From the NCBI GenBank assembly GCA_013376995.1, contig JACAAZ010000017.1, positions 1 to 57,275 on the forward strand: a stretch of DNA of 57,275 bases. Direction: 5' to 3'. Shown in pieces: positions 19,124 to 36,213 of this stretch (positions are counted from its first letter, which is position 1; every line of letters starts with the position of its first letter). The position numbers and the translations under genes are program-made. The notes under the pieces were generated by a model. The model was not told where the DNA came from, searched no databases, and worked only from the letters and a program-made list of their open reading frames with translations. The DNA comes from Bacteroidota bacterium (GTDB taxonomy: Bacteria; Bacteroidota; Bacteroidia; Bacteroidales; UBA4417).

Positions 19124-20260
19124 CTAGGATTTATAGAATTGATGAATAAGATCGCTTACTTCATCAATCTCATTTTCTGTAAGATCATAGAAAAAAGGAA
19201 GGCGGATCAATGTCCTGGCATAGCGGTCAGCATTGGAAAGTTCCCTGCCATCATGCCGGTTACTATAAAATGAACTTGAATGAAGCGGAAGATAGTGAAA
19301 TACGGCTTGTATCCCATTTTTCCCCAGGTACCTTATCAATTGATCACGCTCATCCAGCCCGCTGGTAAGTATATAAAAAAGATGGCCATTCTGAGTTGCA
19401 TAATCCGGGCAGGTTGGTAGCGATAACTTCGCTTGTTGTTCCAGTCCGGACAGTCTGGAAAGATACCTGGAATGAATCTCCTTACGTTTACGCTGAATTT
19501 CACCCAGCATTTCAATCTGGCCGTAGAGAAAGGCAGCAGTAAGGTCGGAAGGCAGGAAAGAAGAACCGATATCTACCCAGCCATACTTATCAACTTCTCC
19601 CCTGTAGAAAGCTGCCCTGTTTGTACCTTTTTCCCAAATGATTTCTGACCTGCCAATAAAACGCGAATCGTTAACAACAAAAAGTCCCCCTTCGCCTGAG
19701 GTAATGTTTTTTGTTTCGTGAAACGAAAAAGTAGCCATCTGCCCAATGCTCCCAAGAGCTTTCTTCCTGTAGTAAGAATCAATGGCATGAGCTGCATCTT
19801 CTATCACAAGGATTCCATGCTTTTCACCAATCTGCATTATAACATCCATATCGCATGCAATACCCGCATAATGAACCGGGATTATAGCCTTGGTCCTGGG
19901 GGTGATCAGGCTTTCCAGTAAGGAGGCATCAATATTGGGGTGATCTCCCATGCTATCTGCAAAGACGATCTTAGCACCGCGAAGCACAAAAGCGTTTGCT
20001 GTGCTAACAAATGTGAAGGAAGGAATGATGACCTCGTCACCGGGCTGTATATCGCAAAGAATAGCCGCCATTTCAAGGGCATCAGTACAGGAAGAGGTCA
20101 ACAGAGCCTTACGAAAATGATATTTTTTCTCAAAAAACGAATGGCATTTCTGGGTCATGACCCCATTTCCCGAAATCTTGCCCAGGCTGATAGCAGCAGA
20201 AACATGATAAGCTTCCCGGCTGGTAAAATGAGGTTTGTTAAAAGGAATCCTATAATTCAT
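19124..20260 (-). CDS. wecE: dTDP-4-amino-4,6-dideoxygalactose transaminase (WecE/RffA type)
   Basis: 378 residues of the DegT/DnrJ/EryC1 PLP aminotransferase fold. The PLP-binding lysine lies in SFHETKNITSGEGG (Lys184) and the pyridine-nitrogen Asp in VIEDAAHAI (about 155). The start (IPFNKPHFTSRE), TSSCTDALEMAA and FSFHETKN regions match the WecE/RffA branch, which makes dTDP-4-amino-4,6-dideoxy-D-galactose from the 4-keto sugar for enterobacterial common antigen and O-antigens. Genes for the dTDP-4-keto-6-deoxyglucose precursor are not in this window. It is divergent from the sulfotransferase-flippase operon, and an AAGG precedes the ATG. A related sugar specificity cannot be excluded. Confidence 0.9.
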   Translation of the reverse strand: MNYRIPFNKPHFTSREAYHVSAAISLGKISGNGVMTQKCHSFFEKKYHFRKALLTSSCTDALEMAAILCDIQPGDEVIIPSFTFVSTANAFVLRGAKIVFADSMGDHPNIDASLLESLITPRTKAIIPVHYAGIACDMDVIMQIGEKHGILVIEDAAHAIDSYYRKKALGSIGQMATFSFHETKNITSGEGGLFVVNDSRFIGRSEIIWEKGTNRAAFYRGEVDKYGWVDIGSSFLPSDLTAAFLYGQIEMLGEIQRKRKEIHSRYLSRLSGLEQQAKLSLPTCPDYATQNGHLFYILTSGLDERDQLIRYLGKNGIQAVFHYLPLHSSSFYSNRHDGRELSNADRYARTLIRLPFFYDLTENEIDEVSDLIHQFYKS

Positions 20261-20647
20261 CCTTACTGGAATTTGGTAGTGTAAAGGGTGAAATAGTTTC
20301 CCTATACACAGGAAGTAAAGTAGCTGTTGCTAAATTAGTATTTTGTAATTAATCACCAAGAATCAATTGCTGAGATTGAACTGAAGGGAAAGTGAAATTC
20401 AATTTGCAACATCCAAATTTCAAATTGCAAAAGTTAAATTGCAAATTATCTAAAGAGTTTATGGTTTGTAAGGTGGAATGATGCTTTATTCCAACATCCG
20501 GTCTGGGTAGGGTCCTTTGTGCTTAAACTGCTTCTTTAACAAACCTATTCTATCCATCTGGCCCAAGGCTTTATCATTTTTCCCTATTTTTGCGCAAAAC
20601 CCAGTTTTTTGAACTAACAACCAACTGTTTACCAGCATTTCCAATAC
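20261..20647. other. Divergent intergenic region with low-complexity AATTTGCAA-like repeats
   Basis: 387 bp between the transaminase and the first sulfotransferase. At 20395-20450 there are repeated, partly inverted blocks related to CAATTTGCAA, CAAATTGCAA and AAATTGCAAATT. A TATTTTTG at 20585-20592, 56 bp before the downstream ATG, is a candidate -7 element. No gene is visible. Confidence 0.5.
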
Positions 20648-21709
20648 ATGCCAACTCCTACTATCAGTCAGCAGGTCCAAAATATCCCCGTATTCTTCAT
20701 CCTGGGAAGGCCCCGTTCAGGAACCACCTTACTCAGGACCTTGTTCGACGCTCATCCCAATGTAACAACACCGGTTGAATGTGCATTTATCATCAACATG
20801 AACCAGAAATACGGCAAGATCAGGAGCTGGACCAAGGATATGCTGCTGGAGTTCTATGAAGATGTTCAGAAGCATATCAAGTTCGACACCTGGAACATCA
20901 ATCTTGACACCCTTAAGGCTGATTTGCTGGAATGTGAAGGCGAAAACACATTTCAGAATGTATGCAAAGTAGTATACTTTGACTATGAATCGCTTTTCCC
21001 GAAAGAAGAGATCAAATGGATAGGTGATAAGAACCCTGTTTATGCCACTTACACTCCGGAGTTGTTAAAGCTTTTCCCGGATGCCAAATTCATCCACCTC
21101 ATAAGGGATCCAAGGGACAATATCATATCCCTGAAAAATGTCGATTTTGAAGGCCCTTTTACAGCCTTACTCGCTTACCGCTGGGAACACTCTGCCAGGA
21201 AACTGCATTACATCAAGAAAAAACACCCGGATAAGTTCTATACTATCCGTTACGAAGACCTGGTATCTGAACCCACAAAATATTACAGGGAGCTCTGCGA
21301 TTTCCTTTCTATTCCTTACAACGACAGCGTTTTTGAATTCTACAAGATTCAAGGGGAGGCGATGAAGAAATTCAATGTGGAAAAGATCATGAAGTACCAC
21401 AAAAGCCTGCTTTCACCTATCAATACCAAGAAAGTCAATCTCTGGAAGACCGAACTGCCTGAACGTGATATCCGGATCACTGAATTTGTTGCCGGACGAT
21501 GGATAAAGAAGAGCGGATATGAAAGAAGGTACCGCTGGCCGGGATTTGTGGCCATCCTCTACTCAATTCCTTGGCTTATCTATGGACGGGCTTTGTACCT
21601 GCTGAGAGACATGATTGATAAACTCCCCTTCAACCTTAAGATTGCCGTCAAAAACCGCGGGCCTGTACTTGCCCGTACCTTTGTCAAATTAAGGAATTCA
21701 GATACCTGA
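20648..21709 (+). CDS. PAPS-dependent sulfotransferase family protein (copy 1)
   Basis: 353 residues. The 5'-phosphosulfate loop is at the N-terminus (FFILGRPRSGTTLLRTLF) and the 3'-phosphate motif is FIHLIRDPRDNIISL, both hallmarks of PAPS sulfotransferases, followed by FYTIRYEDLVSEP. These enzymes move sulfate from PAPS to a hydroxyl or amine on a glycan, lipid or protein. The C-terminus has a hydrophobic stretch (WPGFVAILYSIPWLIYGRALYLL), suggesting membrane association. It begins a tight three-gene operon (4 bp to the flippase). A close paralogue is the third gene. The acceptor is probably the glycan or lipid handled by the flippase. Confidence 0.9.
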   Translation: MPTPTISQQVQNIPVFFILGRPRSGTTLLRTLFDAHPNVTTPVECAFIINMNQKYGKIRSWTKDMLLEFYEDVQKHIKFDTWNINLDTLKADLLECEGENTFQNVCKVVYFDYESLFPKEEIKWIGDKNPVYATYTPELLKLFPDAKFIHLIRDPRDNIISLKNVDFEGPFTALLAYRWEHSARKLHYIKKKHPDKFYTIRYEDLVSEPTKYYRELCDFLSIPYNDSVFEFYKIQGEAMKKFNVEKIMKYHKSLLSPINTKKVNLWKTELPERDIRITEFVAGRWIKKSGYERRYRWPGFVAILYSIPWLIYGRALYLLRDMIDKLPFNLKIAVKNRGPVLARTFVKLRNSDT

Positions 21710-21713
21710 TCCT

Positions 21714-23015
21714 ATGTCCCAGCGAAGTTTCCTGAGGGATATCAGCGGAGTATTCGGGAGTAACCTCCTGGCGCTTGTCAATGCTTTTTTGATTGATATT
21801 GTCCTTTCCAGGCAACTTGGGCCCGAAGGCCGAGGCCTTTATACATCCATACTTGTTGTGCCGCTCATTGTGGTTAGTTTCGCCCTGCTGGGTATTCGCC
21901 GTTCTGCAGTTTTTCACCTTGGGAATAAGGTATTTGATGAAAACCGTACAGTTTCCGGTGTAATGAGCCTGCTTGTGATCAGTAGTGTTTTGGCGATAGT
22001 GATCAGCGGATTCGCATTGCTTTTTATGATGCCTAAAGGATTGACCTGGCCCATGGCAGTCATGGCTTTGCTATCCATCCCGGTCAAATTGATACTGGTG
22101 TATTCCGGCGGGATCTATATTGGAAAAGAAGAATTTAAGAGGTCGAACCTGCAGGTTTGGTTACCAATGTTTTACAACCTGGCAGGAATCATTCTTTTTG
22201 TGTTTTTCCTGAAGTGGTCCGTTTTGGGCGCTTTGCTATCCCTGTTTATTGCAAACTTATTGGTTTCACTGGTTTCACTTTCCTATCTAAAAAAACATTA
22301 TGCTATCCGGCTGCGATGGGATAAAGAAGTTATAGGCAGCCTTGCCCAACTTGGGATTGTTTATGCTTTTGCCGTTGTTGTGATGCAGTTGAATTACAGG
22401 GTTGATCTGCTGTTATTGCAAAAACTATCAACATTAAAGGAAGTTGGATACTATTCGCTGGGAGTAGCCATCAGTGACAAGCTATGGCAACTACCATCCG
22501 CTATTGGGCTTGTGGTAATGAGCCGCAGCGCCAATACAACTGACGAGCAGAAACTAAACCGTGATGTAGCGCGGTTGCTCAGGCTCTCATTCCTGTTGGT
22601 TTTATTCACGGCAGCAGTTTTATGGCTGATTATTCCCTTAGTCCTCCCATTATTATTTGGTGACCGGTTTATCCCCAGTATTACGATAGTACGGTGGATG
22701 TTACCGGGAATCCTGATGTTTGTAATCGTTCGTATTCTTACGGGCAGGTTTGCAGGAAAAGGTCAACCCCTAATACTGATAAGCATTTTCGTCCCGGCCC
22801 TTATCCTGAATATTCTACTCAACCTTATCTGGATTCCTTCGCATGGAGGCGTTGGCGCAGCCTGGGCAAGCAATGTGAGTTACTCTGCCGGAGCTATTGC
22901 TCTGTTAGCGGTGTTTTCAGTTAAGATGAAGGTATCTTTCAGGGAGTTGGTGATGATCAGGGCAACGGATTTTGATTTTCTGCGTACGCTTATCAAGAAA
23001 ACCAGGAAAGCATGA
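21714..23015 (+). CDS. Wzx-like polysaccharide flippase (oligosaccharide export family)
   Basis: 433 residues with about 12 transmembrane helices and no long soluble domain. The N-terminus FGSNLLALVNAFLIDIVLSRQLGPEGRGLYTS is typical of the polysaccharide transporter/MurJ-MOP group, where an LGPEGRG-like motif follows the first helix. Such proteins flip undecaprenyl-linked oligosaccharides from the cytoplasmic to the periplasmic face. It lies between two sulfotransferase genes: 4 bp after the first, and overlapping the second by 4 bp (ATGA). This suggests that the exported unit is sulfated before or around flipping. Specific substrate unknown. Confidence 0.9.
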   Translation: MSQRSFLRDISGVFGSNLLALVNAFLIDIVLSRQLGPEGRGLYTSILVVPLIVVSFALLGIRRSAVFHLGNKVFDENRTVSGVMSLLVISSVLAIVISGFALLFMMPKGLTWPMAVMALLSIPVKLILVYSGGIYIGKEEFKRSNLQVWLPMFYNLAGIILFVFFLKWSVLGALLSLFIANLLVSLVSLSYLKKHYAIRLRWDKEVIGSLAQLGIVYAFAVVVMQLNYRVDLLLLQKLSTLKEVGYYSLGVAISDKLWQLPSAIGLVVMSRSANTTDEQKLNRDVARLLRLSFLLVLFTAAVLWLIIPLVLPLLFGDRFIPSITIVRWMLPGILMFVIVRILTGRFAGKGQPLILISIFVPALILNILLNLIWIPSHGGVGAAWASNVSYSAGAIALLAVFSVKMKVSFRELVMIRATDFDFLRTLIKKTRKA

Positions 23016-24082
23016 GTAAGAAGGAGCAGGATATCATTCGCAAAACGCCCATGTTTTTCATTGTCGGAAGGCCCAGGACCGGCTCTACACTGCTCAGGAC
23101 CTTGTTTGATGCGCATCCTAATGTTTCAATCCCCCAGGAATGGCCCATGCTGCTAGCTCTCCACCGGCAATTCGGTGAAGTTAAGGTTTGGAACAAGGTG
23201 ATATTACAAGACTTTTATGAGGCATTATTTCAGCATCTGAGGATTTCTTACTGGGAAATCACCAATTGGCCGAAGTTTGATAAAGAAGAGCTCTGGCAGG
23301 CATTATTGCAGTGTGAGGGGCCCAACTCGTTTGAAACCGTTTTCAAGACTGTTTATAGCCAGTATCATTCTTATTACGAGAAGAAGGATATCCTGCTTTT
23401 CGGAGACAAGAACCCTGTTTACTCCAACCAGGTTGATATGCTGGCAAAGATATTTCCGACCGCCCGGTTCATCCATCTCACGCGTGATTACAGGGACAAC
23501 CTGGTTTCGATGCTGGATGTGGATTTTGAGATGCCTAATATTTCGGTGCTGGTTTACAGATGGAAGTATTCCTGGATGACTATCAACAAAGTGGCTTCCA
23601 AATATCCTGAAAGGTTCCTGACCATTCGTTATGAAGACCTGGTTGAAAATGCCCAGGAAAGGTTCTGCGAGTTATGCAGGTTCCTTGAGATCCCTTTTGA
23701 ACCTTCGATCTTTGAATTCCATAATCGAAAGGAAGAGTTGGAAAGCCATTTTCCGAAAGAGATCATCGACCGCTATTTCAGGAGTTTATTTAACCCGATT
23801 GATACTAGCAAGGTGGGAATCTATAAGAAGCGCCTGAGCCAATTCCAGGTCCGGGTAGCAGACCAGGTTGCAGGCATTGCGGCAGCTGAAGCAGGGTATG
23901 AAAGAGAATTCGGGAAATTTGACCTGCCGGTATATTTATGGACCCTACCTGCACAAATCTATGCAAGCTGGCTATACACGGTTGGATGGATGGTGTCACT
24001 CCTGCCCTACAAGACAATGATGTGGCTGCTGAACAAGCCCTCATTCCTTGTAAAGATGTATTCCAATATATTCAGGAAGTAG
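23012..24082 (+). CDS. PAPS-dependent sulfotransferase family protein (copy 2)
   Basis: 356 residues, paralogous to the first gene of the operon. The N-terminal loop FFIVGRPRTGSTLLRTLF and DAHPNV after it are nearly identical to copy 1. The 3'-phosphate motif is FIHLTRDYRDNLVSML, and FLTIRYEDLVENA is conserved. The C-terminal hydrophobic segment (YLWTLPAQIYASWLYTVGWM) again suggests attachment to the membrane. The ATG overlaps the flippase stop (ATGA), implying translational coupling. The middle parts differ enough to suggest a different acceptor position or substrate. The 3' end is six bases from the convergent GNAT gene. Confidence 0.9.
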   Translation: MSKKEQDIIRKTPMFFIVGRPRTGSTLLRTLFDAHPNVSIPQEWPMLLALHRQFGEVKVWNKVILQDFYEALFQHLRISYWEITNWPKFDKEELWQALLQCEGPNSFETVFKTVYSQYHSYYEKKDILLFGDKNPVYSNQVDMLAKIFPTARFIHLTRDYRDNLVSMLDVDFEMPNISVLVYRWKYSWMTINKVASKYPERFLTIRYEDLVENAQERFCELCRFLEIPFEPSIFEFHNRKEELESHFPKEIIDRYFRSLFNPIDTSKVGIYKKRLSQFQVRVADQVAGIAAAEAGYEREFGKFDLPVYLWTLPAQIYASWLYTVGWMVSLLPYKTMMWLLNKPSFLVKMYSNIFRK

Positions 24083-24088
24083 TTCATA

Positions 24089-24778
24089 TTATTTCAACCT
24101 GGGCCTGAAAAATCTTTTTCCCTCCGCATTTGATTCACTTTCGAGGTTTACCCCTGCCTTCAGGAAATATTCTTCAATACGGTCAGCCAGGCCGGATTCA
24201 TAATCCTGCGGTTCCAGCAGGACAAATCCTTCCGGGTATTCGTCTTCAATAAAAACGCTGGCTGCTTTCCTGATTTTTTTACCCAGGTATTCGAAATTCT
24301 GCCGGTTAAGGAAGTAAAGCTGGTTTTCCTCATTTTCCTGTCCAGGGCATAGGACATAGCCGATTTGTTTTGTGTATGCAATAGCAGCAGGATTATCACG
24401 CATCACGTGCACGTAGGAGGTATTCCAGTCGAGGTAGTAAAAACCCATTTCCAGCATTACCAGGGAGGCTAAAATTGGGATAAAGGTGTGTATGTAATCC
24501 TTATCCCAGAAGAAAACACCGGATTCGCTGGTCCGTGCATCCCAGTCCATGTTTTTGTCGTTGATAAGTCCAATCTTTTCCCCTTGATATTCAACGATAT
24601 AATAGTAATTCTCAAAATTGTTGATACGCTCGAACCAGGCCAGCTGCATCTCAGGAGTTATTTCCTGCCGGTATTGCATAACCTGCCGGATGTCGTCAGA
24701 ATTACGCATCTGCCTAACCAGTTCAATATCCTCCAACGTTAGCCGGCGCAGGGTAATACCATATTTCCTTATGATCAT
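24089..24778 (-). CDS. GNAT family N-acyltransferase
   Basis: 229 residues. The N-terminal two thirds fit the RimJ/RimL-like GNAT fold: ITLRRLTLEDIELVRQMRN, then a beta sheet around YYIVEYQGEKIGLIN, and late-fold VMRDNPAAIAYTKQIGYV, which matches the xxNxxAxxxYxKxGF acetyl-CoA site region. The last 60 residues extend beyond the fold. It overlaps the upstream GT2 gene by 4 bp, so the two are translated together. In sugar pathways such enzymes acylate a 4-amino group of dideoxy sugars. With a WecE transaminase and an ACP in the locus this is a plausible role, with acetyl-CoA or an acyl-ACP as donor. Confidence 0.8.
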   Translation of the reverse strand: MIIRKYGITLRRLTLEDIELVRQMRNSDDIRQVMQYRQEITPEMQLAWFERINNFENYYYIVEYQGEKIGLINDKNMDWDARTSESGVFFWDKDYIHTFIPILASLVMLEMGFYYLDWNTSYVHVMRDNPAAIAYTKQIGYVLCPGQENEENQLYFLNRQNFEYLGKKIRKAASVFIEDEYPEGFVLLEPQDYESGLADRIEEYFLKAGVNLESESNAEGKRFFRPRLK

Positions 24779-25698
24779 TTGAGGATCTTTTTGATGGAAT
24801 AGGGCGGCTTCTTGTTCTGAACTTTGTAGATGCGAGTGAGATATTCACCGATCATTCCAAGGCAAAGCATGATGATGCTTGTGGAAAAAAGAATGGCTAC
24901 TATCAACGAGGTGTAGCCAAGTGGTACATCGTGGATGAGCTTGTTGATAATGAAGCGGACAGCCAGCAAAAGGCTCAGCACTGACAGGATAAACCCGCCA
25001 TAAGTCATGATCCTTAAGGGAACTGCTGTATAGTAGATGATGATATTGAAAGAAAGCTTCATCAGTTTCCAGGTTGAATACCCGGAATGGTTTACTGACC
25101 TTTTTTCGTGAGAAACCTGGACAAACGAGATATTTCCTGTATACCAGAGCAACAATTCATCAATATACATGAAGTGCTGGTTGTGTTTTAAGATATTTAT
25201 TGCCAGTTCCCTGGTGAGCAGGCGGAAAGATGAGCCCTCTCCCGGAGATTGAAGCAGTATTCTTGATGATTTTTTGATGAAGTAACTTCCGAAATTGCGG
25301 AACAGGGAGTGCTTTTTCTTTCCAAAATACCCGTAAACAAGGTCTGCATCAGATTCATCAAGGCTTTGGATCAATTTGGGAATCTCCTCAGGTGGGATCT
25401 GGAGGTCATCATCAATGGTAATCAGGTATTCTCCTCTCGCATGGTCGAAGCCGCAAAATACTGCATTATGCTGGCCATAATTACGTGTAAGCCTGATCGC
25501 CGTTACTTCTTCAGTATATTGCGATTTCAACTTAGCCAGTATCTCCCAACTTTTATCTTTGCTGCTATCGTCAACAAATACAATCTCAAATGTCTTTCCC
25601 AAAGCCGCAAACACCACTTTTGTCCGGGCAAAGAGCTGCTCCAGGGTACTTTCGCTGTTGTAAACAGGCACTATAATGCTATATTCGGGATTGTTCAA
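24775..25698 (-). CDS. GT2 glycosyltransferase, polyprenyl-phosphate type (GtrB/ArnC/DPM1-like)
   Basis: 307 residues. A GT-A catalytic domain carries YSIIVPVYNSESTLEQL, the nucleotide-binding VDDSSKD, the metal-binding TIDDDLQIPPEEIP (DDD about 96-98) and YGQHNAVFCGFDHARGE. Two C-terminal transmembrane helices follow (about 225-295). This layout is that of enzymes that load a sugar on undecaprenyl or dolichyl phosphate for later transfer outside the membrane. The TMTC-like protein at 34171 could use such a donor. The start is TTG at 25698, and the polypyrimidine DNA upstream has no Shine-Dalgarno. It is co-transcribed with the GNAT gene. Confidence 0.9.
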   Translation of the reverse strand: MNNPEYSIIVPVYNSESTLEQLFARTKVVFAALGKTFEIVFVDDSSKDKSWEILAKLKSQYTEEVTAIRLTRNYGQHNAVFCGFDHARGEYLITIDDDLQIPPEEIPKLIQSLDESDADLVYGYFGKKKHSLFRNFGSYFIKKSSRILLQSPGEGSSFRLLTRELAINILKHNQHFMYIDELLLWYTGNISFVQVSHEKRSVNHSGYSTWKLMKLSFNIIIYYTAVPLRIMTYGGFILSVLSLLLAVRFIINKLIHDVPLGYTSLIVAILFSTSIIMLCLGMIGEYLTRIYKVQNKKPPYSIKKILK

Positions 25699-25753
25699 AG
25701 GGGGAAGGGGGATTGGTTATAAGTTAATGGTTGTTTGTTATTGGTTGTCCGGC

Positions 25754-26012
25754 GTCACACTTCGGCTGCGCTCAGTGTGACTCGTTTATTTTTTGGCTGC
25801 GGTCAGTGTGACTTTTACTCATTATTCTGTTGCGCCAGTGTGACTCGTCGTTTATTTTTCGGCTGCGCCAGTGTGACTTTGTGTACTATTTCAGGTTATG
25901 CTCAGTGTGACTCTTCACTCATTATTCGGCTGCGCTCAGTGTGACTCGTCGTTTATTATTCGGCTGCGCTCAATGTGACTTGGACAAGGATGCTGGCTGC
26001 GGTCAGTGTGAC
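25754..26012. repeat. Eight-copy 31-34 bp array with a hairpin head
   Basis: AGTGTGAC (one copy AATGTGAC) occurs at 25774, 25805, 25837, 25870, 25904, 25938, 25972 and 26005, a spacing of 31, 32, 33, 34, 34, 34 and 33 bp. Each copy is preceded by a version of GGCTGCGCTC and followed by AT-rich filler such as TCGTTTATT. The first copy also has the inverted arm GTCACACT at 25754-25761, forming a hairpin with the 12-nt loop TCGGCTGCGCTC. The array fills the gap between the SDR and GT2 genes. It is not a CRISPR array. Confidence 0.9.
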
Positions 26013-26014
26013 TC

Positions 26015-26038
26015 GTAAGCCATGCATGCATGGCTTAC
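26015..26038. repeat. 24-bp perfect palindrome
   Basis: The half-site GTAAGCCATGCA (26015-26026) is followed directly by its exact complement to 26038, with no spacer. It starts three bases after the last array unit and ends seven bases before the hairpin at 26046. Possible protein-binding site or recombination scar. Confidence 0.85.
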
Positions 26039-26045
26039 ATCCACA

Positions 26046-26081
26046 GGCGGTCAGGCCGAGCGTAGCCGAGGCCTAGCCGCC
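26046..26081. repeat. Hairpin with the array's loop sequence over the SDR stop codon
   Basis: A 12+12+12 structure with arms GGCGGTCAGGCC and GGCCTAGCCGCC (10 of 12 pairs) around a loop which, on the minus strand, reads TCGGCTACGCTC, one base different from the array head loop. The SDR stop TAG (26073-26075) is in the first arm on the minus strand. It could stop or slow transcription, although no T run follows. Confidence 0.8.
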
Positions 26082-26804
26082 GAGCACCATATTGCTCCCT
26101 GTCACCCATTTGGATGCATCCGAAAGGAGGTAAACGATGGCATTGGCAACATCATTCGGTTCACCAAAGCCCAGGGGCATCATTTTTTCAAATTTCTCCA
26201 TCACTTCTTTCGAAATGGTCTCAGCAGCACCTTCAACCATTGGGGTTCTAACAAAGGATGGAGATATGCAGTTTGAACGTATCCCTTTGGGCGCCAGTTC
26301 AATAGCCAGGACCCTGGAATATGCTTCAATAGCAGCTTTCGTACTTCCATATAAAGACCCTCCAAAGTATGGGTATTTTGTTGCGATGGATGAAAGGAAA
26401 ACCAATGAGGCTTTGCTGTTGATCTTTTTCTTCCTTAGGAGCAAGCTCATAAGCAGGACCGGAGCTTTATAGTTGATGTCGAAAAAGTTCGACAGGTCTT
26501 CATTTCCAATAAACTTTGCGGGTAGGTGCCCCGTAATGCCGGCCGAAAATACAACTCCATCCAGTGCAGGTACCTGATCTACCAGGATTGACAATTCATC
26601 ACTCTTAGTCAAATCAGCACTGATCGATAGATTTCCATCTCCCTTAAGATTGGATAGAGCTTCCTCAAGCCTTTCATTATTCCGTCCGGTAAGAATTACA
26701 TTGGCCCCTGAGAGACTTATGATCCTGGCAGCTTCCTTGCCTATGCCTGATGAGGCACCTGTTACAAGAATGGTTTTTCCGGTAAGATCAAAAGGGTTAT
26801 CCAC
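26073..26804 (-). CDS. Short-chain dehydrogenase/reductase (FabG-like)
   Basis: 243 residues with a classical SDR fold. The cofactor loop is TGASSGIGK (about 15-23) and the active site has Ser139 (FLSS), Tyr152 and Lys156 (YGSTK). The usual NNAG is FSAG here. It ends VTGSNMVLGG, at the point where SDRs normally have VDGG, and the stop codon lies inside a repeat hairpin. It is 21 bp downstream of the KASIII gene, and the two with ACP form an apparent operon. The expected reaction is NADPH reduction of a 3-oxoacyl-ACP made by the KASIII, giving a 3-hydroxyacyl group. Reduction of a sugar or other ketone is an alternative. Confidence 0.88.
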   Translation of the reverse strand: MDNPFDLTGKTILVTGASSGIGKEAARIISLSGANVILTGRNNERLEEALSNLKGDGNLSISADLTKSDELSILVDQVPALDGVVFSAGITGHLPAKFIGNEDLSNFFDINYKAPVLLMSLLLRKKKINSKASLVFLSSIATKYPYFGGSLYGSTKAAIEAYSRVLAIELAPKGIRSNCISPSFVRTPMVEGAAETISKEVMEKFEKMMPLGFGEPNDVANAIVYLLSDASKWVTGSNMVLGG

Positions 26805-26825
26805 AATTCAAAAATAAGTGTAGAA

Positions 26826-28268: not shown

Positions 28269-29663
28269 GTGCTGGAGAAAAAGAAAAAAAGACTGCTTCT
28301 AATAAATCCGATTAACCCTGTTGACAAGGGATTCGTTGTCAGTATTCCCGGGCGCTACCCTCCGCTGGGATTAGGTTATGTAGCAGCTTTAACACCTTCC
28401 GACTGGGAAGTTTATATCCTGGATGAAGCTTTCAAACCTTTTGCATTCCGTGATGCCGACCTGGTTGGCTTCACAGCATTTACATTTACCGCACCCAGGG
28501 CTTATGAACTGGCAGCCATTTATCGTGAAAGAGGGATACCAACCGTTCTCGGGGGGATACATGCTTCCATGATGCCTGAAGAAGCCAGGCAATATATGGA
28601 TGCTGTTGTGATTGGAGAAGCAGAATCAGCCTGGCCACAGCTTATTGCTGATTTTGAAGCCGGCCAGATGAAGAATGAATACCATGGTGGCCTAACAGAT
28701 CTGAAAAACCTGGTAAAACCGCGCCACGACCTCTTCCATCCGGATTATTGGTTTGCTTCAATATTCACAACCCGTGGATGTCCCAGCAATTGCTCATTCT
28801 GTTCAGTTACCTCTTTCAATGGAGCCAAGCAGCGTTTCCGCCCCGTGGAGGAAGTATTGGATGAGATTGCCATGGTAAAGCAAAAATTGATCTTCTTTGT
28901 AGACGACAACATCATTGGGTACGGTACAGAGGCCAGGGAGCATGCTTTGGCAATTTTCAAGGGGATGGCAGAACGCAAGCTGGATAAGATCTGGTTTTCG
29001 CAGGCTTCCCTTAATTTCGGCGATAACGATGAATTGTTACAGGCTGCCAGTAATGCAGGATGCAGGATGATCCTTCTTGGAATTGAGTCGGAAAAGGCAG
29101 AACAATTGAAATCAGCCCACAAGAACTTCAATCTGAAACGGCTGGATAAATATTCAACTACCTTCAGGAATATCCATAAGCATAACATAGCTGTCCTTGG
29201 CACCTTCATATTCGGCCTTGACGGCGACAACAAACAGGCACTCTACCAGAGAGCCGAATATATTCTCAGATCGGAAGTTGATGCTTACCAGACAACCATT
29301 TTGACACCCTTGCCGGGAACAACGCTTTACAAGCAGATGGTGGAAGATGACCGCTTGTTGAAAACCAATTTCCCAGCCGACTGGAGTTCATTCCAGTTTT
29401 TCAGGGTAAATTTCAAGCCAAAGTCCATGCATCCTGTCGAGCTTTTTGAGACCATGGTGGATATCTGGTCACACATTTACCGCCGCAGGGTCATCGAGTG
29501 GAAAGCGGTCAAGACCTTCTGGAATATGAGAAGCTGGAATTTACAACTTTGGTTCACCAGGGGCTGGCAAGCTACATTATGGGCCTATCACACCAACTGG
29601 ATTTACCGGAACCTGATTATGGGGAAATCGAAGAAGAACAGGATACGGCTTGGAGAACAATAA
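28269..29663 (+). CDS. B12-binding domain radical SAM protein
   Basis: 464 residues. The N-terminal Rossmann-like cobalamin domain (INPINPVDKG, PPLGLGYVAAL, VGFTAFTFTAPRAYE, VLGGIHASMMPEEA) is followed by the radical SAM motif TRGCPSNCSFCSV with cluster ligands Cys171, Cys175 and Cys178. FFVDDNIIGY and LLGIESE follow, as in the BchE/HpnJ-like group. Members of this class methylate or rearrange unactivated carbons in lipids, sugars and natural products. The C-terminal 100 residues are rich in Trp and Arg. The start is a GTG at 28269. The gene lies between the acyl-chain operon and a membrane acyltransferase, so a lipid or glycolipid substrate is a reasonable guess. Confidence 0.9.
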   Translation: MLEKKKKRLLLINPINPVDKGFVVSIPGRYPPLGLGYVAALTPSDWEVYILDEAFKPFAFRDADLVGFTAFTFTAPRAYELAAIYRERGIPTVLGGIHASMMPEEARQYMDAVVIGEAESAWPQLIADFEAGQMKNEYHGGLTDLKNLVKPRHDLFHPDYWFASIFTTRGCPSNCSFCSVTSFNGAKQRFRPVEEVLDEIAMVKQKLIFFVDDNIIGYGTEAREHALAIFKGMAERKLDKIWFSQASLNFGDNDELLQAASNAGCRMILLGIESEKAEQLKSAHKNFNLKRLDKYSTTFRNIHKHNIAVLGTFIFGLDGDNKQALYQRAEYILRSEVDAYQTTILTPLPGTTLYKQMVEDDRLLKTNFPADWSSFQFFRVNFKPKSMHPVELFETMVDIWSHIYRRRVIEWKAVKTFWNMRSWNLQLWFTRGWQATLWAYHTNWIYRNLIMGKSKKNRIRLGEQ

Positions 29664-29725
29664 GCAGCCTGAGTATTTCAGAAAATTTGGTCGGTTCAAC
29701 CCATTTTTGCTGAATTCTGAATCTG

Positions 29726-29733
29726 TATCTTTG
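29726..29733 (+). promoter_or_regulatory. TAnnTTTG promoter before the acyltransferase
   Basis: TATCTTTG 20 bp before the ATG at 29754, with TTTG at 29706-29709 as a possible -33 element (16-bp gap). This is the most complete Bacteroidota-type promoter seen in the window. Confidence 0.5.
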
Positions 29734-29753
29734 CCAGTTCTAACCTGGATTAG

Positions 29754-30881
29754 ATGAAATCACGCATTGTCTATCTCGATAACATCCGTATCGTTCTTAT
29801 CTCCTACGTAATAGCAGGGCACATTTCAGTTGCCTATGGAGCTATCGGAAGGGGGAACTGGTACTATATCGAGCCGGTGCATGATTTCTTAACCAAAGCC
29901 GTTCTTTACCTTTTCGATATGCTGGCGTATTCATTCCTGATGGCCATGTTTATTTTTATAGCCGGGTATTTTACACCAGCTTCCCTGGCAAAAAAAGGAA
30001 CCTTTAAATTCCTGAAAGAACGCAGCTTACGATTATTTATTCCTTTGGTTTTTTACTACTTCCTGCTTGGACCTGTAGTGAAATATATCAGCCAACTGGC
30101 AAAAGGAGAAACTGGCAGTCTCGGCAGGTTCTTTGCAGATATGTATCATTCAGGAGTTTACGGATATATGGGCGTAATGTGGTTTGTTGAATTGATACTG
30201 GTATTTTCATTTGCCTATGCTGCTTATAAATACTTTTTCCCGGATGGGATCTGGCAATTAAAAAGTGAAGATTTTCCAGTTAACCGGAGAATACTGGTTT
30301 TTATCCTGTTTTTCGGATTGGCCAGTTTCCTTTCGCGTGTTTTATTCCCGATGGGAGGAGGCTATATGGCGGCCCGGCCGCTTGCCTCCATCGTGCTGTT
30401 TGCAACTTCTTTCTTTTTGGGGACCATTGCCTGGAAATACAACTGGCTCGAAAAAATGCCCGAAGATTCAGCCCGGCTTTGGTTTTGGGTTGCCCTGGCA
30501 GTGATGGTGCTACCCCTGGTTGCATTCGTGATTTTGAGGAAAAGCATTGGTTTTACAACCATTAGAGGTGCCGGTTCTGCAGCATCTCTTCTTTACTCCT
30601 ATTGGGAAGTGATAAAATGTATTGGAACCGGGATGATATCTATTGTAGTGTTCAGGAAATATTTCGACAGGCAGGGTAAGATAGCCGGCGCGATGGGACG
30701 GAGCGCCTTTGCAGCCTATGTACTGCATCCACTTGTATGTGTTTTGATCATGTGGGCTTTGGCATCTGTTTCTATCCACCCGCTGCTTAAGTTCAGCATC
30801 GTTGCTCCTACAGCATTGGTGGGAACTTTCGGGGTATCCTGGCTTTTTCTCCAGATCCCTGGGGTAAATAAAGTATTCTAA
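29754..30881 (+). CDS. Acyltransferase 3 family membrane protein (OafA-like)
   Basis: 375 residues with about ten transmembrane helices. The N-terminus YLDNIRIVLISYVIAGHIS has the LDxxR...H pattern of the acyltransferase 3 family, in which the His is needed for catalysis; LKERSLRLFIPLVFYYFL fits the family's RxxRIxxP region. These inner-membrane enzymes move acyl groups, usually acetyl, to sugars or lipids on either face of the membrane. The gene follows the B12 radical SAM gene by 90 bp on the same strand and has its own promoter-like element. A role in O-acylating the surface glycan is the simplest reading. Confidence 0.88.
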   Translation: MKSRIVYLDNIRIVLISYVIAGHISVAYGAIGRGNWYYIEPVHDFLTKAVLYLFDMLAYSFLMAMFIFIAGYFTPASLAKKGTFKFLKERSLRLFIPLVFYYFLLGPVVKYISQLAKGETGSLGRFFADMYHSGVYGYMGVMWFVELILVFSFAYAAYKYFFPDGIWQLKSEDFPVNRRILVFILFFGLASFLSRVLFPMGGGYMAARPLASIVLFATSFFLGTIAWKYNWLEKMPEDSARLWFWVALAVMVLPLVAFVILRKSIGFTTIRGAGSAASLLYSYWEVIKCIGTGMISIVVFRKYFDRQGKIAGAMGRSAFAAYVLHPLVCVLIMWALASVSIHPLLKFSIVAPTALVGTFGVSWLFLQIPGVNKVF

Positions 30882-30928
30882 ACAGATTTTGCCTGAAGTT
30901 AACATTATCCGGCAGCATCATTGGAAGT

Positions 30929-32317
30929 TTAGACCTTAACTTCCTTCCATCCGCCTTTCCTGAAATAATACCAGGCCAGCAATGCAATGAATGATTCGGC
31001 AACTGGCACTGCTATAAAAACTCCGTTAGTACCCATCTTCATGAAATTTGCAAGGAAATAGGCTAAAGGAATCTGAAAGAGCCAGAATCCAACAAAATTG
31101 ATAAGAGTAGGAGTCCTGGTATCACCGGCACCATTAAGCGCCTGGGTCATTACCATGGCCAGTCCGTAAAACACAAAGCCGGAGCCTATAATCCGAAGAG
31201 CTCTTGTTCCATAATCAATAACCGAGGGTTCATGAGAAAAGAAACTAATAATAGGGTGAGCAAACAAAAGGAAGATGATTGTCACCAGGCTCATAAAAAC
31301 AGCATTGTACCTGGCGGTAAGACTTGCACTTTGTTCAGCTCTCAGCAGTTGTTTCGCCCCCAGGTTTTGCCCGACAAGTGTAGCAGCAGCATTGCTAAGT
31401 CCCCAGGCAGGCAGAATGAAGAATACAACATTCCGGATGGCAATCTGGTACCCGGCTGATGCAGTAGTCCCCCCTGTCTCGGCTACCAACCTTGCCAGTA
31501 TGATCCAGCTACCGCTGGCAATGATGAACTGAAGTGTTGCCGGCCATGCGATTTTAATTATAGATGTAACGATGCTTAGATCAAATCGAAAGTGCAGCCA
31601 ACGAAACCTGAGTATCCCGCTACCTTTGAAAAGATGGTACCCCTGGTACAAAACACCTGTTGAACGCCCTGTTACTGTTGCGATTGCGGCACCCTTTAAT
31701 CCAAAGAAATGGATCATCAGCGGGCAAAGAATAATATTCGTAAGACTTGCTATCCAAAGGCTTCTCATGGCGATTGCAGCATCCCCGGCACCCCTGAATA
31801 TACCATTGATCAGGAATAGTAGCATAATGGCCCCGCTGCCACCAAACATGATCCGGGTGAATATTGCACCGTTTGTCACAACTTCCTTACTTGCACCCAT
31901 AAAAGTGAGGATTTCGGGTGCATAAACGGCTCCGGCAAGACTGATGATTAGCGTTCCAAGCAACGAGACAACCAATGCCTGGGCTCCGGCATGTGATGCT
32001 GCTTCCGGATTTTTCTCACCAATACGGCGGGCTACGATGGCTGTTGCAGCAGTACTAATGCCAATAGCCAGGGAGTAGACGAGACTTATGACCGACTCAG
32101 TCAACCCAACTGTTGCAATGGCATCCTGTCCCAGGCGGCCAACGAAAAACATATCCACTACGGCAAAAACGCTTTCCAGGCATAGTTCCAGGATCATGGG
32201 TATGGCCAACAAGAACACAGCCACTCGCATGCTTCCAGTGGTATAATCCCGCTCCTCCCCTTTTATTGAAAGCTTGATAACCTGAATCGCGTCAGAAAGT
32301 CTGTTTCTAAATGTCAT
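30929..32317 (-). CDS. MATE family efflux transporter
   Basis: 462 residues with about 12 transmembrane helices in two related halves. The N-terminal half has PMILELCLESVFAVVDMFFVGRLGQDAIATVGLTES, a clear MATE signature. The second half has the matching ALNGAGDTRTPTLINFVGFWLFQIPLAYFLA. MATE proteins export cationic drugs or metabolites using Na+ or H+; members of the wider MOP superfamily also move lipid-linked compounds. It is convergent with the acyltransferase gene (47 bp) and 88 bp downstream of the acyl-activating enzyme gene, so it may be the last gene of that operon. Confidence 0.93.
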   Translation of the reverse strand: MTFRNRLSDAIQVIKLSIKGEERDYTTGSMRVAVFLLAIPMILELCLESVFAVVDMFFVGRLGQDAIATVGLTESVISLVYSLAIGISTAATAIVARRIGEKNPEAASHAGAQALVVSLLGTLIISLAGAVYAPEILTFMGASKEVVTNGAIFTRIMFGGSGAIMLLFLINGIFRGAGDAAIAMRSLWIASLTNIILCPLMIHFFGLKGAAIATVTGRSTGVLYQGYHLFKGSGILRFRWLHFRFDLSIVTSIIKIAWPATLQFIIASGSWIILARLVAETGGTTASAGYQIAIRNVVFFILPAWGLSNAAATLVGQNLGAKQLLRAEQSASLTARYNAVFMSLVTIIFLLFAHPIISFFSHEPSVIDYGTRALRIIGSGFVFYGLAMVMTQALNGAGDTRTPTLINFVGFWLFQIPLAYFLANFMKMGTNGVFIAVPVAESFIALLAWYYFRKGGWKEVKV

Positions 32318-32405
32318 CCTTGTAACTTGGAAGTAAAATAAGGCTCAAAGAGAGTAAATTGTTTGATCGGAATGTTTAATAAATTAATCAAGGCCTGGTT
32401 CCAGG

Positions 32406-34193
32406 CTAGAGTTCAAAAGATTTACTATACAAAGAATCAAGTATTTCTGCGTAATGTTGCTGTAATTTCACACGGTCAAGCGCTTTGTTTTCTTTCAAAA
32501 ATCCATTTTCAACAGTCCATTCATCATTTACGATCGTGAATTTCAGCACCTGGTCAGGGCCACGCCTCATGGAGTTTCCTGTTTTTAATTCCGATGTCAG
32601 CAGCTCATTCACCCGCTTGTTTGTAATCAAACTGGCATTATCCAGTTGTTCCAACCCATGTATTTTCTGTTTGATCTCCCCGAAATCAGGAATCAGGATG
32701 GCTACCAGGAAATTCCTGTTATGCCCGGAGACCCATGCTTCCTTGATAAACCTGGATTTGCGCAATTGTTCTTCGACTACTTTAGGGTTTACATAAAGTC
32801 CGGAAGAAAGTTTGAAAATTTCCTTTTTTACCCCTGTCAGCGTAAGAAACCCCAGGGCATCCATCGTTCCAAGGTCGCCGGTATGCAACCAGCCATCCCT
32901 GTCCACAGCCTCATGGCTGGCTCCCTTATGCGCATAATATCCGGCCATGACCCCGTCACTACGTACGCATACTTCGCCATCGGGAAGTATTTTCACTTCA
33001 ACACCATTCATGGGTTTGCCTACTGAATAGTTTCTACAGGACCCTTTCAGATTATAGGAAACCAGCGGGCCGGCTTCTGTAATTCCGTACCCTTCATATA
33101 TTGCAATACCCATGGCATTGGAGAGGTTCAGCCAAGCCGGGTTTAGTGCTGCTCCTCCGCAAAGAATGGTATGAAGCTTACCACCAAGGGCCTTTCTCCA
33201 TGAAGGAAAAATGATCAATTTCCCAAGAAGTAAATAGAACAACTGTATCAGATTCTTTTTCTTCCCGGGTTCTGCTTGCTTAGCAGCCTGGATAGCTTTC
33301 CTGGCAACAGCTGATATCATCCATCCTGAACGCAGGGTCTGTTGCTCGAAGGAAGTAAATAGCCGTTCGATCAGCAAGGGTACCATAACAACCATTTCAG
33401 GCCGGATCTCTTTGAAATCCTTCTGCATGCCTGGAATTTTATCATTGTACCAAATTCTCACCCCAAAATACTGCTGGCAATAATTGATGGTCCTTTCGTA
33501 GCTATGCGCAAGGGGAAGCAGGCTTACCGTTGATTTCACATTTTCAACATGATTTGCCTTTGCATAATTCAGGATATTAAAAACATGATTCCCGTGGGTA
33601 AGCACAACTCCTTTTACAGCAGTTGATCCTCCTGATATATAGATGACAGAAGCCGGATCTTCTGGTTTTACCTTTGATTTTAACTCTTCCAGCCATGTTT
33701 CGTTTCCAGGCATCTCTTCAGATGAAAGGAAAGCATTAAAATCTCTAATCCCTTCCACCGGATCAAAGGCAACCACCCATTCCAGGGCAGGAAACTCCGA
33801 ACGCCTGGAAAGGATTTTCATCAGTGCTGATTTGGCAGAAATGAAAGCGATGCGGCAATTGGTCTCCTGCAATATCTTGATCAGCTTACCTTCCGGAACA
33901 CTTGGATATAATGGAACATGGATCGCACCAATCTGCAATGCCCCCATGTCCACACAATTGAATTCAGGCCGGTTGGGAGTGAGGGTAATTATTGTATCCC
34001 CCTTTTTTATACCCAGCGATTTCAGCGCAAAACTGACCTTGTTGGCGGTTTCAATATATCTTTCAACGGAAATCGTTTCCCATTGTCCATTCCGCCGGTA
34101 ACCAAAGACAACTTTCCCGCTAAAGTTTTTTTGCAGATGGTTTAACAGGTCGAAGACCCTGGTCAAAGGCTCAGAATGGTTTGGAAGGTTCAT
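32406..34193 (-). CDS. Long-chain acyl-CoA synthetase-like AMP-binding protein with atypical motifs
   Basis: 595 residues with the length and order of the FAA1/FadD15-type ligases: LLPLAHSYERTINY, GKLHTILCGGAALNP, YEGYGITEAGPLVSYN, DGWLHTGDLGTMD, then a C-terminal domain. The phosphate loop reads YISGGSTAVKGVVLTH (185-200) where YTSGTTGxPKGVxLTH is usual, so a Gly and the Pro are replaced. The C-terminal lysine motif is LKENKALDR, where family members usually have TPTxKxKR; the lysine appears shifted by one. It may be a divergent or impaired enzyme. Its start overlaps the end of the TPR gene by 23 bp, implying coupled translation. Expected role: activation of a fatty acid. Confidence 0.85.
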   Translation of the reverse strand: MNLPNHSEPLTRVFDLLNHLQKNFSGKVVFGYRRNGQWETISVERYIETANKVSFALKSLGIKKGDTIITLTPNRPEFNCVDMGALQIGAIHVPLYPSVPEGKLIKILQETNCRIAFISAKSALMKILSRRSEFPALEWVVAFDPVEGIRDFNAFLSSEEMPGNETWLEELKSKVKPEDPASVIYISGGSTAVKGVVLTHGNHVFNILNYAKANHVENVKSTVSLLPLAHSYERTINYCQQYFGVRIWYNDKIPGMQKDFKEIRPEMVVMVPLLIERLFTSFEQQTLRSGWMISAVARKAIQAAKQAEPGKKKNLIQLFYLLLGKLIIFPSWRKALGGKLHTILCGGAALNPAWLNLSNAMGIAIYEGYGITEAGPLVSYNLKGSCRNYSVGKPMNGVEVKILPDGEVCVRSDGVMAGYYAHKGASHEAVDRDGWLHTGDLGTMDALGFLTLTGVKKEIFKLSSGLYVNPKVVEEQLRKSRFIKEAWVSGHNRNFLVAILIPDFGEIKQKIHGLEQLDNASLITNKRVNELLTSELKTGNSMRRGPDQVLKFTIVNDEWTVENGFLKENKALDRVKLQQHYAEILDSLYSKSFEL

Positions 34194-36213
34194 CCTGCTT
34201 TGGCTGGGAGGTTTGCTGACTGCTGATTAGCACTTGCTTGTAGTATTCCGTTTTCTCCTTGTTCCGCCTGCCCAGGTAATACATGTAAAGCACAGAGGCA
34301 ATCCTGCGGTCGCCGGGGTGGATAGCGTCGATTTGCTCTAACCATGGCACAGCATTAACCGTATCATGGTGTTGCATGTAATAGGTAATGATATTGAGGT
34401 AGGGAAGTTTCATCTTAGGCCTGATCTTCAGGATCTGCTTGTTGACATAAATTGCGGAATCCACTTTATCTACCTTGCTGTAACAGGCTCCCAGGTTTGA
34501 CAATGCCTTTACGTCGGTAGTATCCAGTGCGAACGCCATCCGGTAGCATGGGATTGCCTCGGCGAACTGTTCAAGCTGCTGATGTGCATAGCCCATATTA
34601 AACCATGCAGGAGCATATTTGGGCCTGACATCACTAGCCTTTTTAAAATATTCAAGTGCCTTTGTATAATCCTGCTGCATCATGGTGCTCAATTCCCCCA
34701 TGGTATTCCAGGCTTCGAAATAACCCGGGTAAATATCGACTGTTTGCTTTAAAAGTGCATTGATCTTTTCGATCTGATCCTCATACCCTGTTTTAACTCC
34801 TGTATTTTTAATTTCCTCAATCATGGCACTCTTAAGTGCATTCGCATAAATATAATGCGCCTTTGCGGATTTATCGAGGTATTTGATGTCATGCGAAAAC
34901 AGGCTTACTTCCGACTTCCAGTCTTTGTTACGGGTAATGGTTTTTGCTGTAGCCGGGATCAACAAAATGACCGTCACGCCCAGAACAGTCATTGCACCTT
35001 TATTCGTGAGAAGGCTGTCAAGCGGTTGTTTCAGCACTTTGAACATGAGGTATGCCAATGCCATGCAGAAAGCTATGGAAGGAATGTAGAGAAAACGCTC
35101 AGCTACAATGCCGGTAGGCTGCTTAACGAAATTGGCATACATGGAGATGGTGACAATATAGAAAAGGATGCAGAAAGAAAGAATATGCTTTTCGCGGATC
35201 TTCCAGATTGCAAACACAAACAAGGCAACATGCACAAGTATGGAGAGGATTACCCAGGGATTAGCAAAGTTCACCACGGGAATCATATTATATCCGTAAT
35301 AGAATGCAAGTGGATGTGGGAACAGCAGAAGTTTTATATAGAAAAGCAGGACGTAGAACCCTGTGGAAATCTTCAGGAAGAAGTTCTTTTCAAAAAGCAG
35401 TGGATTTTCAATAAACAATACCGGGCGGTTGACAAAAGGCATTGAATATTTCACGACCTGCAGGGCTATGTAGAATATTGCAAGCAGGGAAACTGCCGAC
35501 CAGATTAGAGTCCTTGGTTTTGCATCTGTGAAGAAGTAGAGTACCAAAGGGATGGCTACGATAAATGTCAGGGTTCCCGGCTTCGAAATCAGGCTGAAGA
35601 GGAAGGCAAAGGCCCCTGCGATGATAAGCCAAACAGAAGGTTTTCGAGTATACCTGAGGAAGAAGTAGATGGATAGCAGTCCAAAGAGGAAACTGAGGAT
35701 CTCTTCACGGTTTTTAAGGCTGGCAACAACCTCTGTATGAAGCGGATGGGCTGCCCAGAGGAGACAGGCGATAAAGGGGAACCAGGCGGAATATTTTGGA
35801 AGCAGCCTCCTGATGATTACGAAAAGCAGGAGGATATTCAGTCCATACAGGATAACATTGATAAGGTGGCTGGGGCCGGGATTGTCGCCAAAAAACTCAT
35901 GTTCAACGGCGAACATGGCTTTGGCAATTGGCCGGTAGCCGAAATTCATGGTGCCGCCTTCTTCAGCGTTTATGTTGATGTAAAGAGAGGTGAAAATCCG
36001 TGGAATAGCTTTGATCCCTTGTTTAACTACCGGGTTATTGTAAGTTACATAGAGGTCATCAAGGGAGTAACCGTTTTTAAGGGTATTTCCGTACAAAATG
36101 AAGGCAAAGGAAAATAAAATAACCTTGAACCACAGTTCTTTATGTGATCTCTTTTGAACTTCAGGATTGGGTTCGGGAACAGCCGGGACTTTGATCGGTT
36201 TTTTCTTAACCAT
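34171..36213 (-). CDS. TMTC-like GT-C membrane protein with C-terminal TPR repeats
   Basis: 680 residues. The N-terminal ~440 contain about 10 transmembrane helices. The first periplasmic loop has the acidic pair SLDDLY (52-53), then YRPI (93-96), HPLHTEVVASLKNREE (156-171) and LFSLISKPGTL. These fit the pattern of TMTC/POMT-like GT-C glycosyltransferases, in which the DD is catalytic. The C-terminal ~190 residues hold TPR repeats (EYFKKASDVRPKYAPAWFNM, AIPCYRMAFALDTTDVKALSNL). TMTC proteins O-mannosylate proteins from a lipid-linked sugar. A similar envelope protein O-glycosylation is inferred, not proven. It is first in an operon with the AMP-binding protein (23-bp overlap). Confidence 0.75.
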   Translation of the reverse strand: MVKKKPIKVPAVPEPNPEVQKRSHKELWFKVILFSFAFILYGNTLKNGYSLDDLYVTYNNPVVKQGIKAIPRIFTSLYININAEEGGTMNFGYRPIAKAMFAVEHEFFGDNPGPSHLINVILYGLNILLLFVIIRRLLPKYSAWFPFIACLLWAAHPLHTEVVASLKNREEILSFLFGLLSIYFFLRYTRKPSVWLIIAGAFAFLFSLISKPGTLTFIVAIPLVLYFFTDAKPRTLIWSAVSLLAIFYIALQVVKYSMPFVNRPVLFIENPLLFEKNFFLKISTGFYVLLFYIKLLLFPHPLAFYYGYNMIPVVNFANPWVILSILVHVALFVFAIWKIREKHILSFCILFYIVTISMYANFVKQPTGIVAERFLYIPSIAFCMALAYLMFKVLKQPLDSLLTNKGAMTVLGVTVILLIPATAKTITRNKDWKSEVSLFSHDIKYLDKSAKAHYIYANALKSAMIEEIKNTGVKTGYEDQIEKINALLKQTVDIYPGYFEAWNTMGELSTMMQQDYTKALEYFKKASDVRPKYAPAWFNMGYAHQQLEQFAEAIPCYRMAFALDTTDVKALSNLGACYSKVDKVDSAIYVNKQILKIRPKMKLPYLNIITYYMQHHDTVNAVPWLEQIDAIHPGDRRIASVLYMYYLGRRNKEKTEYYKQVLISSQQTSQPKQDEPSKPF

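Follow-up and report, generated by a model that had tools for sequence, protein, structure and literature searches.

A conserved Bacteroidales locus predicted to build and transfer an acylated, sulfated 4-amino sugar

In the Arn pathway, the 4-aminotransferase ArnB aminates a sugar that is N-formylated, loaded onto polyprenyl phosphate by ArnC, and transferred by the GT-C enzyme ArnT. The wfpC-G genes of Flavobacterium psychrophilum lead to UDP-D-Qui2NAc4NR and are described as comprising a dedicated acyl carrier protein (ACP), ketoacyl synthases, and a reductase predicted to form the hydroxyacyl group for the 4-amine (PMC6519341). Three-component extracytoplasmic glycosylation (Gtr systems, and undP-Ribf with GT136) is reported to combine a polyprenyl-phosphate sugar synthase, a flippase, and a GT-C transferase (PMC11127046). 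Here we analyse a locus at positions 19124–36213 of a 57,275-nucleotide stretch of DNA, which as a whole we call the window, from the 5.05 Mb genome of a Bacteroidota bacterium (Bacteroidales, UBA4417; GCA_013376995.1, contig JACAAZ010000017.1). We judge it to encode a real, conserved pathway, probably composed of known kinds of parts in a new combination. Its genes, with intact motifs, are conserved in order and co-inherited. In our preferred reading, to which we give an even chance, this co-inherited pathway would deliver a polyprenyl-phosphate-linked, N-(3-hydroxyacyl), sulfated 4-amino-4,6-dideoxyhexose to an acceptor outside the cytoplasm.

Protein families were assigned using Pfam and NCBIfam profiles with their curated cut-offs, and the reading frames of all genes named at 19124–36213 were checked. 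The genes proposed in the original prediction, made from the letters and open reading frames, are all open frames there, and their family assignments held. From the far end, the genes run TMTC> FACL> MATE> <Acyl_transf_3 <radicalSAM ACP> KASIII> SDR> GT2> GNAT> <ST2 <flippase <ST1 WecE>, in which FACL is a long-chain acyl-CoA ligase-like AMP-binding enzyme, radicalSAM a radical S-adenosylmethionine enzyme, KASIII a 3-ketoacyl-ACP synthase III, SDR a short-chain dehydrogenase/reductase, GT2 a family 2 glycosyltransferase, and ST a sulfotransferase. The residues whose conservation is reported below are those that we take, from their families, to be catalytic.

Relatives of the KASIII were sought in 60 genomes and then in 344 genomes of the order (47 genomes at 1e-90), and 53 loci were annotated, a set that omits L045 (the second, 41% KASIII of G048) and L085 (a repeat of L039). 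Forty-two of these contain a window-type KASIII and represent 39 genomes of the 344-genome sample besides the window's own, together with G006, G009, and G012. They include ACP in 41 loci, SDR in 39, GT2 in 33, GNAT in 30, sulfotransferase in 23, radical SAM in 18, flippase and TMTC in 15 each, and WecE in seven, and the order KAS-SDR-GT2-GNAT is present in 29; in eight of the remaining 13, the available stretch stops at most 2.3 kb downstream of KAS. Orientation is conserved as well. Sulfotransferases lie downstream in 19 of 23 loci and upstream in four, with 34 of 35 copies convergent; of the 18 loci with radical SAM genes, 15 have them upstream, where each of the 28 copies is divergent from KAS, and four have them downstream; and TMTC is upstream and codirectional in 14 of 15 loci, with L062 having it downstream. 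In L047, which belongs to a different family, the order is TMTC> FAAL> ACP> <FAAL-ACP KASIII> SDR> GT2> GNAT> <ST <flippase MBOAT> DUF1574> <ST WecE>, where FAAL stands for fatty acyl-AMP ligase; this is the window's plan with other predicted acyl-activating and O-acyl enzymes.

Within the genus, the order is kept in L032, L033, and L091, and in L034 with L092–L094, the set of G011 being spread over these four contigs; MATE and Acyl_transf_3 were not found in the G011 stretches compared. The OafA-like Acyl_transf_3 protein of the window (29754–30881, plus strand) and the MATE transporter (30929–32317, minus strand) both pass their Pfam cut-offs, and neither is among the recurrent neighbour families of related loci. 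Acyl_transf_3 relatives at 57% occur in L032 and L035, whereas MBOAT proteins (eight loci) and DUF1574-like proteins (seven loci) take its place in some other relatives. Gene order is thus kept in the genus and over 19 families, which answers the concern raised with the original prediction that it might vary even among close relatives. Within the grouping proposed there, ACP-KASIII-SDR-GT2-GNAT form a conserved cassette, and MATE and Acyl_transf_3 are the least conserved members.

Co-occurrence was scored with one fixed threshold per family: 1e-90 and then 1e-125 (window type) for KASIII, 1e-70 for GT2, 1e-120 for WecE, 1e-100 for radical SAM, 1e-110 for TMTC, and 1e-50 for sulfotransferase. 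Window-type KASIII is found in 40 of the 344 genomes, in 19 families; the set keeps the partial matches at contig edges in G028 and G144 and omits G017, G042, G137, G160, G259, G270, and G341, which have a more distant KASIII in different surroundings. These 40 genomes contain GT2 in 37 cases (4.7 expected), TMTC in 37 (5.2), WecE in 34 (8.4), and radical SAM in 24 (3.4), with Fisher p values from 6e-21 to 1e-42 that ignore relatedness; with all 47 KASIII genomes, the counts are 38, 38, 36, and 25. The sulfotransferase was detected in 37 of the 40, compared with 1 of 40 genomes lacking KASIII (p 8e-18, relatedness again ignored), and in that single genome, G014, a WecE-ST-flippase-ST-GNAT run continues into the contig end (L091). 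Counted by family, of 19, the sulfotransferase occurs in 17, TMTC in 18, GT2 in 18, WecE in 17, and radical SAM in 12. Of the 34 genomes with both WecE and KASIII, 13, the window's among them, have WecE at most 20 kb from a module gene; of the 38 WecE genomes lacking KASIII, only G091 does, and there the module is broken by contig ends. G091 and G263 (L088–L090) have GT2 without a KASIII match, on contigs that break off next to GT2 or SDR; WecE and GNAT are adjacent in G091 (L090). In the KASIII tree, members of the families f103, f47, f13, and f120 are placed in different branches, which suggests horizontal transfer.

If surface-glycan genes without a common function had come together by chance, with the ACP-KASIII-SDR-GT2-GNAT operon alone cooperating, this would account for those relatives where the cassette lies beside unrelated genes, such as cytochrome bd (L037) or an ABC exporter (L036, without GNAT). 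However, co-inheritance extends to unlinked genes: TMTC accompanies KASIII in 37 of 40 genomes, yet no more than 21 have it within 20 kb of a further module gene, and the sulfotransferase is found in 37 of 40 as well. We therefore reject this explanation, on order, orientation, and co-occurrence, as very improbable. The grouping is not due to chance, since order, orientation, and genome-wide co-occurrence are all conserved.

The acyl module comprises a dedicated ACP (PF00550; 27887–28144), the KASIII (26826–27881), and a FabG-like SDR ketoreductase (26073–26804), all on the minus strand and all above their Pfam cut-offs. Ser45 of the ACP and Cys119, His267, and Asn297 of the KASIII are each kept in 41 of 41 sequences, and Tyr152 and Lys156 of the SDR in 39 of 39, the window included in every case. 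Elsewhere in the same genome, the best match to the KASIII shows 28% identity, and a branch with 100/100 support sets window-type KASIII apart from ten FabH-like sequences; on these grounds, we rejected the idea of a misread housekeeping FabH. Between the SDR and GT2 genes, at 25761–26016, there are about 7.7 imperfect 33-base units with the core GGCTGCGCTCAGTGTGACT, and this exact core is absent from the 86 other loci compared.

The GNAT (24089–24778, minus strand), a predicted sugar N-acyltransferase, passes its Pfam cut-off; its best curated match is PseH, at 51.3 bits under a cut-off of 93.1. A profile built from 28 of 30 GNAT relatives and the window protein (alignment A1, 29 sequences) retrieved FdhC (5kta, 1.3e-10) first and PseH (4xpk, 5.1e-10) second from the PDB. 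FdhC is specific for 3-hydroxybutanoyl and dTDP-Fuc3N. FdhC and PseH have both been described as sugar amine acyl- or acetyltransferases, and FdhC is called a GNAT-superfamily sugar N-acyltransferase in the title of its cited paper.

A single KASIII suggests a C4 acyl group, although longer chains would be possible with priming by acyl-activating enzymes. The AMP-binding enzyme of the window (32406–34193, minus strand; Pfam cut-off passed) has the motif SGGSTAVKGV in place of the SGTTGxPKG usual in its relatives, a difference that may affect activity. Its relatives adjoin TMTC in L044, L084, and L092, and FAAL-type enzymes occupy its place in other related loci. FAAL-type AMP-binding proteins that combine a DIP2-like domain with an ACP fused at the C-terminus lie between ACP and KASIII at L047:6885–9074, L046:6796–8832, and L050:2630–8916, the last having three such proteins consecutively.

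Such enzymes bear on a different proposal, that a long acyl chain, 3-hydroxy or branched, is assembled by the acyl-CoA or acyl-AMP ligase, ACP, KASIII, and SDR and receives its head group from the sugar genes, yielding a sulfated glycolipid or lipid-like metabolite. It would fit the recurrence of AMP-binding genes by the cassette (24 of 54 loci, the window included), several encoding FAAL-type proteins fused to an ACP domain, and the second KASIII found upstream in some relatives, for example L065, L066, and L072–L076. Nevertheless, the cassette continues into GT2 and the sugar-acyltransferase-like GNAT in 29 of 42 loci, a single KASIII favours a short chain if there is no priming by the ligase, and no dehydratase, enoyl reductase, or KASI/II was identified among the recurrent families. 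We regard a glycolipid product as unlikely.

The WecE-type aminotransferase (19124–20260, minus strand) passes two curated cut-offs, scoring 529.9 bits with PRK11706 (cut-off 375) and 486.6 with ECA_wecE (434.85), and its best PDB relative is 4piw, a dTDP-4-amino-4,6-dideoxygalactose transaminase. Lys184 is kept in 7 of 7 sequences, including that of the window, and a dTDP-glucose 4,6-dehydratase is encoded in the genome, above its own cut-off. The product is most likely dTDP-4-amino-4,6-dideoxyhexose (dTDP-Fuc4N). The GT2 enzyme (24775–25698, minus strand) passes its Pfam cut-off and, among PDB relatives, is equally close to the GtrB-like sll0501 (5ekp, 5.2e-46) and to ArnC (9bhc, 1.2e-45), which makes it, by sequence, a GtrB/ArnC-type polyprenyl-phosphate synthase; it reaches 177.4 of the 529 bits of the ArnC equivalog. 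Its Asp96-Asp97-Asp98 motif is kept in 33 of 33 sequences, the window included, and its hydrophobic segments are confined to residues 226–287, near the C-terminus, as judged by hydropathy, the measure used for all segments given here.

The TMTC-like protein (34171–36213, minus strand), a predicted GT-C transferase, has a TMTC_DUF1736 match of 30.3 bits (cut-off 27), with TPR repeats C-terminal of it, and about 11 hydrophobic segments. Asp52 and Asp53 are kept in 14 of 15 sequences, the window included, with a gap in the fifteenth. A profile from 11 of 14 relatives and the window protein (alignment A2, 12 sequences) gave only TPR matches among the 60 PDB matches listed. The radical SAM enzyme (28269–29663, plus strand) has B12-binding and radical SAM domains above their Pfam cut-offs, and its Cys171, Cys175, and Cys178 are kept in 33 of 33 sequences, including the window's.

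The two sulfotransferases of the type using 3'-phosphoadenosine 5'-phosphosulfate (PAPS), ST1 (20648–21709) and ST2 (23012–24082), flank a Polysacc_synt/MurJ-like flippase (21714–23015); all three are on the plus strand and pass their Pfam cut-offs, and the start of ST2 overlaps the flippase stop codon. Arg153 and Asp154 of the sulfotransferase are kept in 41 of 41 sequences, the window included, and the genome encodes an adenosine 5'-phosphosulfate kinase. The flippase has about 11 hydrophobic segments. No transmembrane or hydrophobic span is seen in the sulfotransferases, and those of the GT2 are limited to the region near the C-terminus; sulfation is therefore expected to occur in the cytosol, before export.

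A third PAPS-type sulfotransferase, directly followed by a protein of the arylsulfate sulfotransferase (ASST) family with a hydrophobic N-terminus, is encoded at 52089–54935 and preceded by a chromate-transporter-family gene; all three Sulfotransfer_3 matches of the genome fall within the window. We set this pair aside as a member of the system, as a search of 79 other genomes at 1e-20 gave no relative of the ASST protein.

Among the 14 locus proteins, no Wzy-type or initiating-transferase domain was detected (E up to 0.001; Wzy was not searched genome-wide), in agreement with the original prediction. Its suggestion of a short glycan can be refined: the lack of both in the locus fits a polyprenyl-phosphate-monosaccharide route, through GT2 and a GT-C enzyme, over a short Wzx/Wzy glycan. 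Alternatively, the acyl-Fuc4N could be one residue of a lipid-pyrophosphate-linked oligosaccharide in a conventional Wzx-exported glycan (O-antigen, capsule, or general protein O-glycan), with initiator and polymerase encoded elsewhere and TMTC adding only a side sugar. The flippase is indeed Polysacc_synt/Wzx-like, PF02397 initiating transferases occur outside the locus (five matches on four contigs of the same genome), and the wfpC-G precedent is reported to serve an O-polysaccharide (PMC6519341). In addition, related KASIIIs in L031 and L040 accompany an aminotransferase and a PglD-like acyltransferase; these two belong to the 11 of 53 loci that differ from the window type, five of which share the PglD-like family, the proteins confirmed in L031 and L040 clustering with those of three more such loci. 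L031, from a Paludibacteraceae metagenome-assembled genome, was also the only locus found in a scan of named genomes with KASIII. Against a conventional glycan, the ArnC/GtrB-like GT2 and TMTC are the only glycosyltransferases identified among the recurrent locus families, and a polyprenyl-phosphate donor is suggested by their co-inheritance with KASIII, each in 37 of 40 genomes. We consider a Wzx-type glycan possible, if rather doubtful.

An acylated, sulfated 4-amino-sugar pathway is the best reading of the locus anatomy and the comparative data. It would begin with WecE-type transamination to dTDP-Fuc4N. In a second step, KASIII would use malonyl on the dedicated ACP to elongate a short acyl starter, and reduction by the SDR would follow, giving 3-hydroxybutyryl if acetyl-primed, or a longer group if the AMP-binding enzyme primes. 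The FdhC/PseH-like GNAT would transfer this 3-hydroxyacyl group to the 4-amine (step 3), the ArnC/GtrB-like GT2 would load the sugar on polyprenyl phosphate (step 4), and the cytosolic PAPS sulfotransferases would sulfate it, for export by the flippase encoded between them (step 5). Finally, the TMTC-like GT-C enzyme would transfer the sugar outside, perhaps to protein (step 6), and the radical SAM enzyme, perhaps by C-methylation, and O-acyltransferases may modify the product further. Every substrate, the order of steps 3–5, and the acceptor are predictions; the TPR domain suggests a protein acceptor, and precedent a glycan. The F. psychrophilum acyl route provides a precedent for steps 2 and 3, and the three-component GT-C systems for steps 4–6.

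Several observations weigh against this reading. GNAT and GT2 both score under their curated equivalog cut-offs, and the TMTC_DUF1736 match scarcely exceeds its own. L036, L050, L056, L074, and L076 have space downstream of KAS but are missing GT2 or GNAT at that place, although the genomes of L050 and L056 have GT2 on another contig, and a GT2-GNAT pair in G042 has no adjoining KASIII. Six of the 40 KASIII genomes have no WecE relative at the threshold and 16 have no radical SAM, so that the data do not establish either as essential. WecE also serves other pathways, since 38 of 72 WecE genomes have no KASIII.

Other features were noted in passing. The G042 pair (L095:7018–8573) lies beside a gene for a 215-amino-acid protein. 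Next to the locus, at 14971–18856, are genes for two PKD_6 proteins (P0016 and P0019) with type IX secretion system sorting tails (PF18962), a feature that indicates Bacteroidota; in G014 (L091), WecE is flanked by a relative, at 65%, of one of these proteins. At 7512–8750, the window of this bacterial genome encodes a full-length serpin (PF00079, 371.9 bits).

Among the matches listed in the open-licence PMC literature, as far as titles and the beginnings of abstracts go, we found no published description of this gene combination. Dedicated acyl synthesis, sulfation, and polyprenyl-phosphate GT-C transfer, usually met apart, appear here joined in one set across 19 families, and the locus offers a substrate hypothesis for bacterial TMTC-like proteins. 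More speculatively, and in our estimate improbably, these enzymes might move a single sulfated N-(3-hydroxyacyl) 4-amino sugar from polyprenyl phosphate to TPR-selected proteins, as a new extracytoplasmic modification; were this so and the acyl chain long, it would amount to lipidation of surface proteins through a sugar.

In comparison with the known systems, the locus is predicted to share with Arn the succession of a 4-aminotransferase, N-acylation, ArnC-type loading, and GT-C transfer, but has WecE instead of an ArnB-family enzyme (236.3 of the 631 bits of the ArnB equivalog, the ArnC equivalog being likewise not reached), a predicted hydroxyacyl instead of a formyl group, TMTC instead of ArnT, and added sulfation. 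With wfpC-G it has in common a dedicated ACP, a 3-ketoacyl-ACP synthase, and a reductase; wfpC-G is described with two synthases for 3,5-dihydroxyhexanoyl, a PglD-like acyltransferase, a UDP sugar, and an O-polysaccharide product (PMC6519341). In contrast, the window has one KASIII, a GNAT in place of the PglD-like hexapeptide acyltransferase, WecE (dTDP), sulfotransferases, TMTC, and a GT2 of the polyprenyl-phosphate type. Because of the curated scores and the parts that are absent, we rejected the locus as an Arn or wfp system. The closest solved relative of its GNAT family, FdhC of Acinetobacter nosocomialis, is a distant one, and the TMTC-like protein resembles TMTC protein O-mannosyltransferases in its layout of DUF1736 and C-terminal TPR repeats. 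The set of GT2, flippase, and candidate GT-C enzyme, predicted from sequence in the window, is that reported for the three-component systems (PMC11127046), with both a Polysacc_synt flippase and a MATE protein in the locus; what distinguishes the window is a sugar predicted to be N-acylated and sulfated, and a candidate GT-C enzyme of the TMTC/TPR type.

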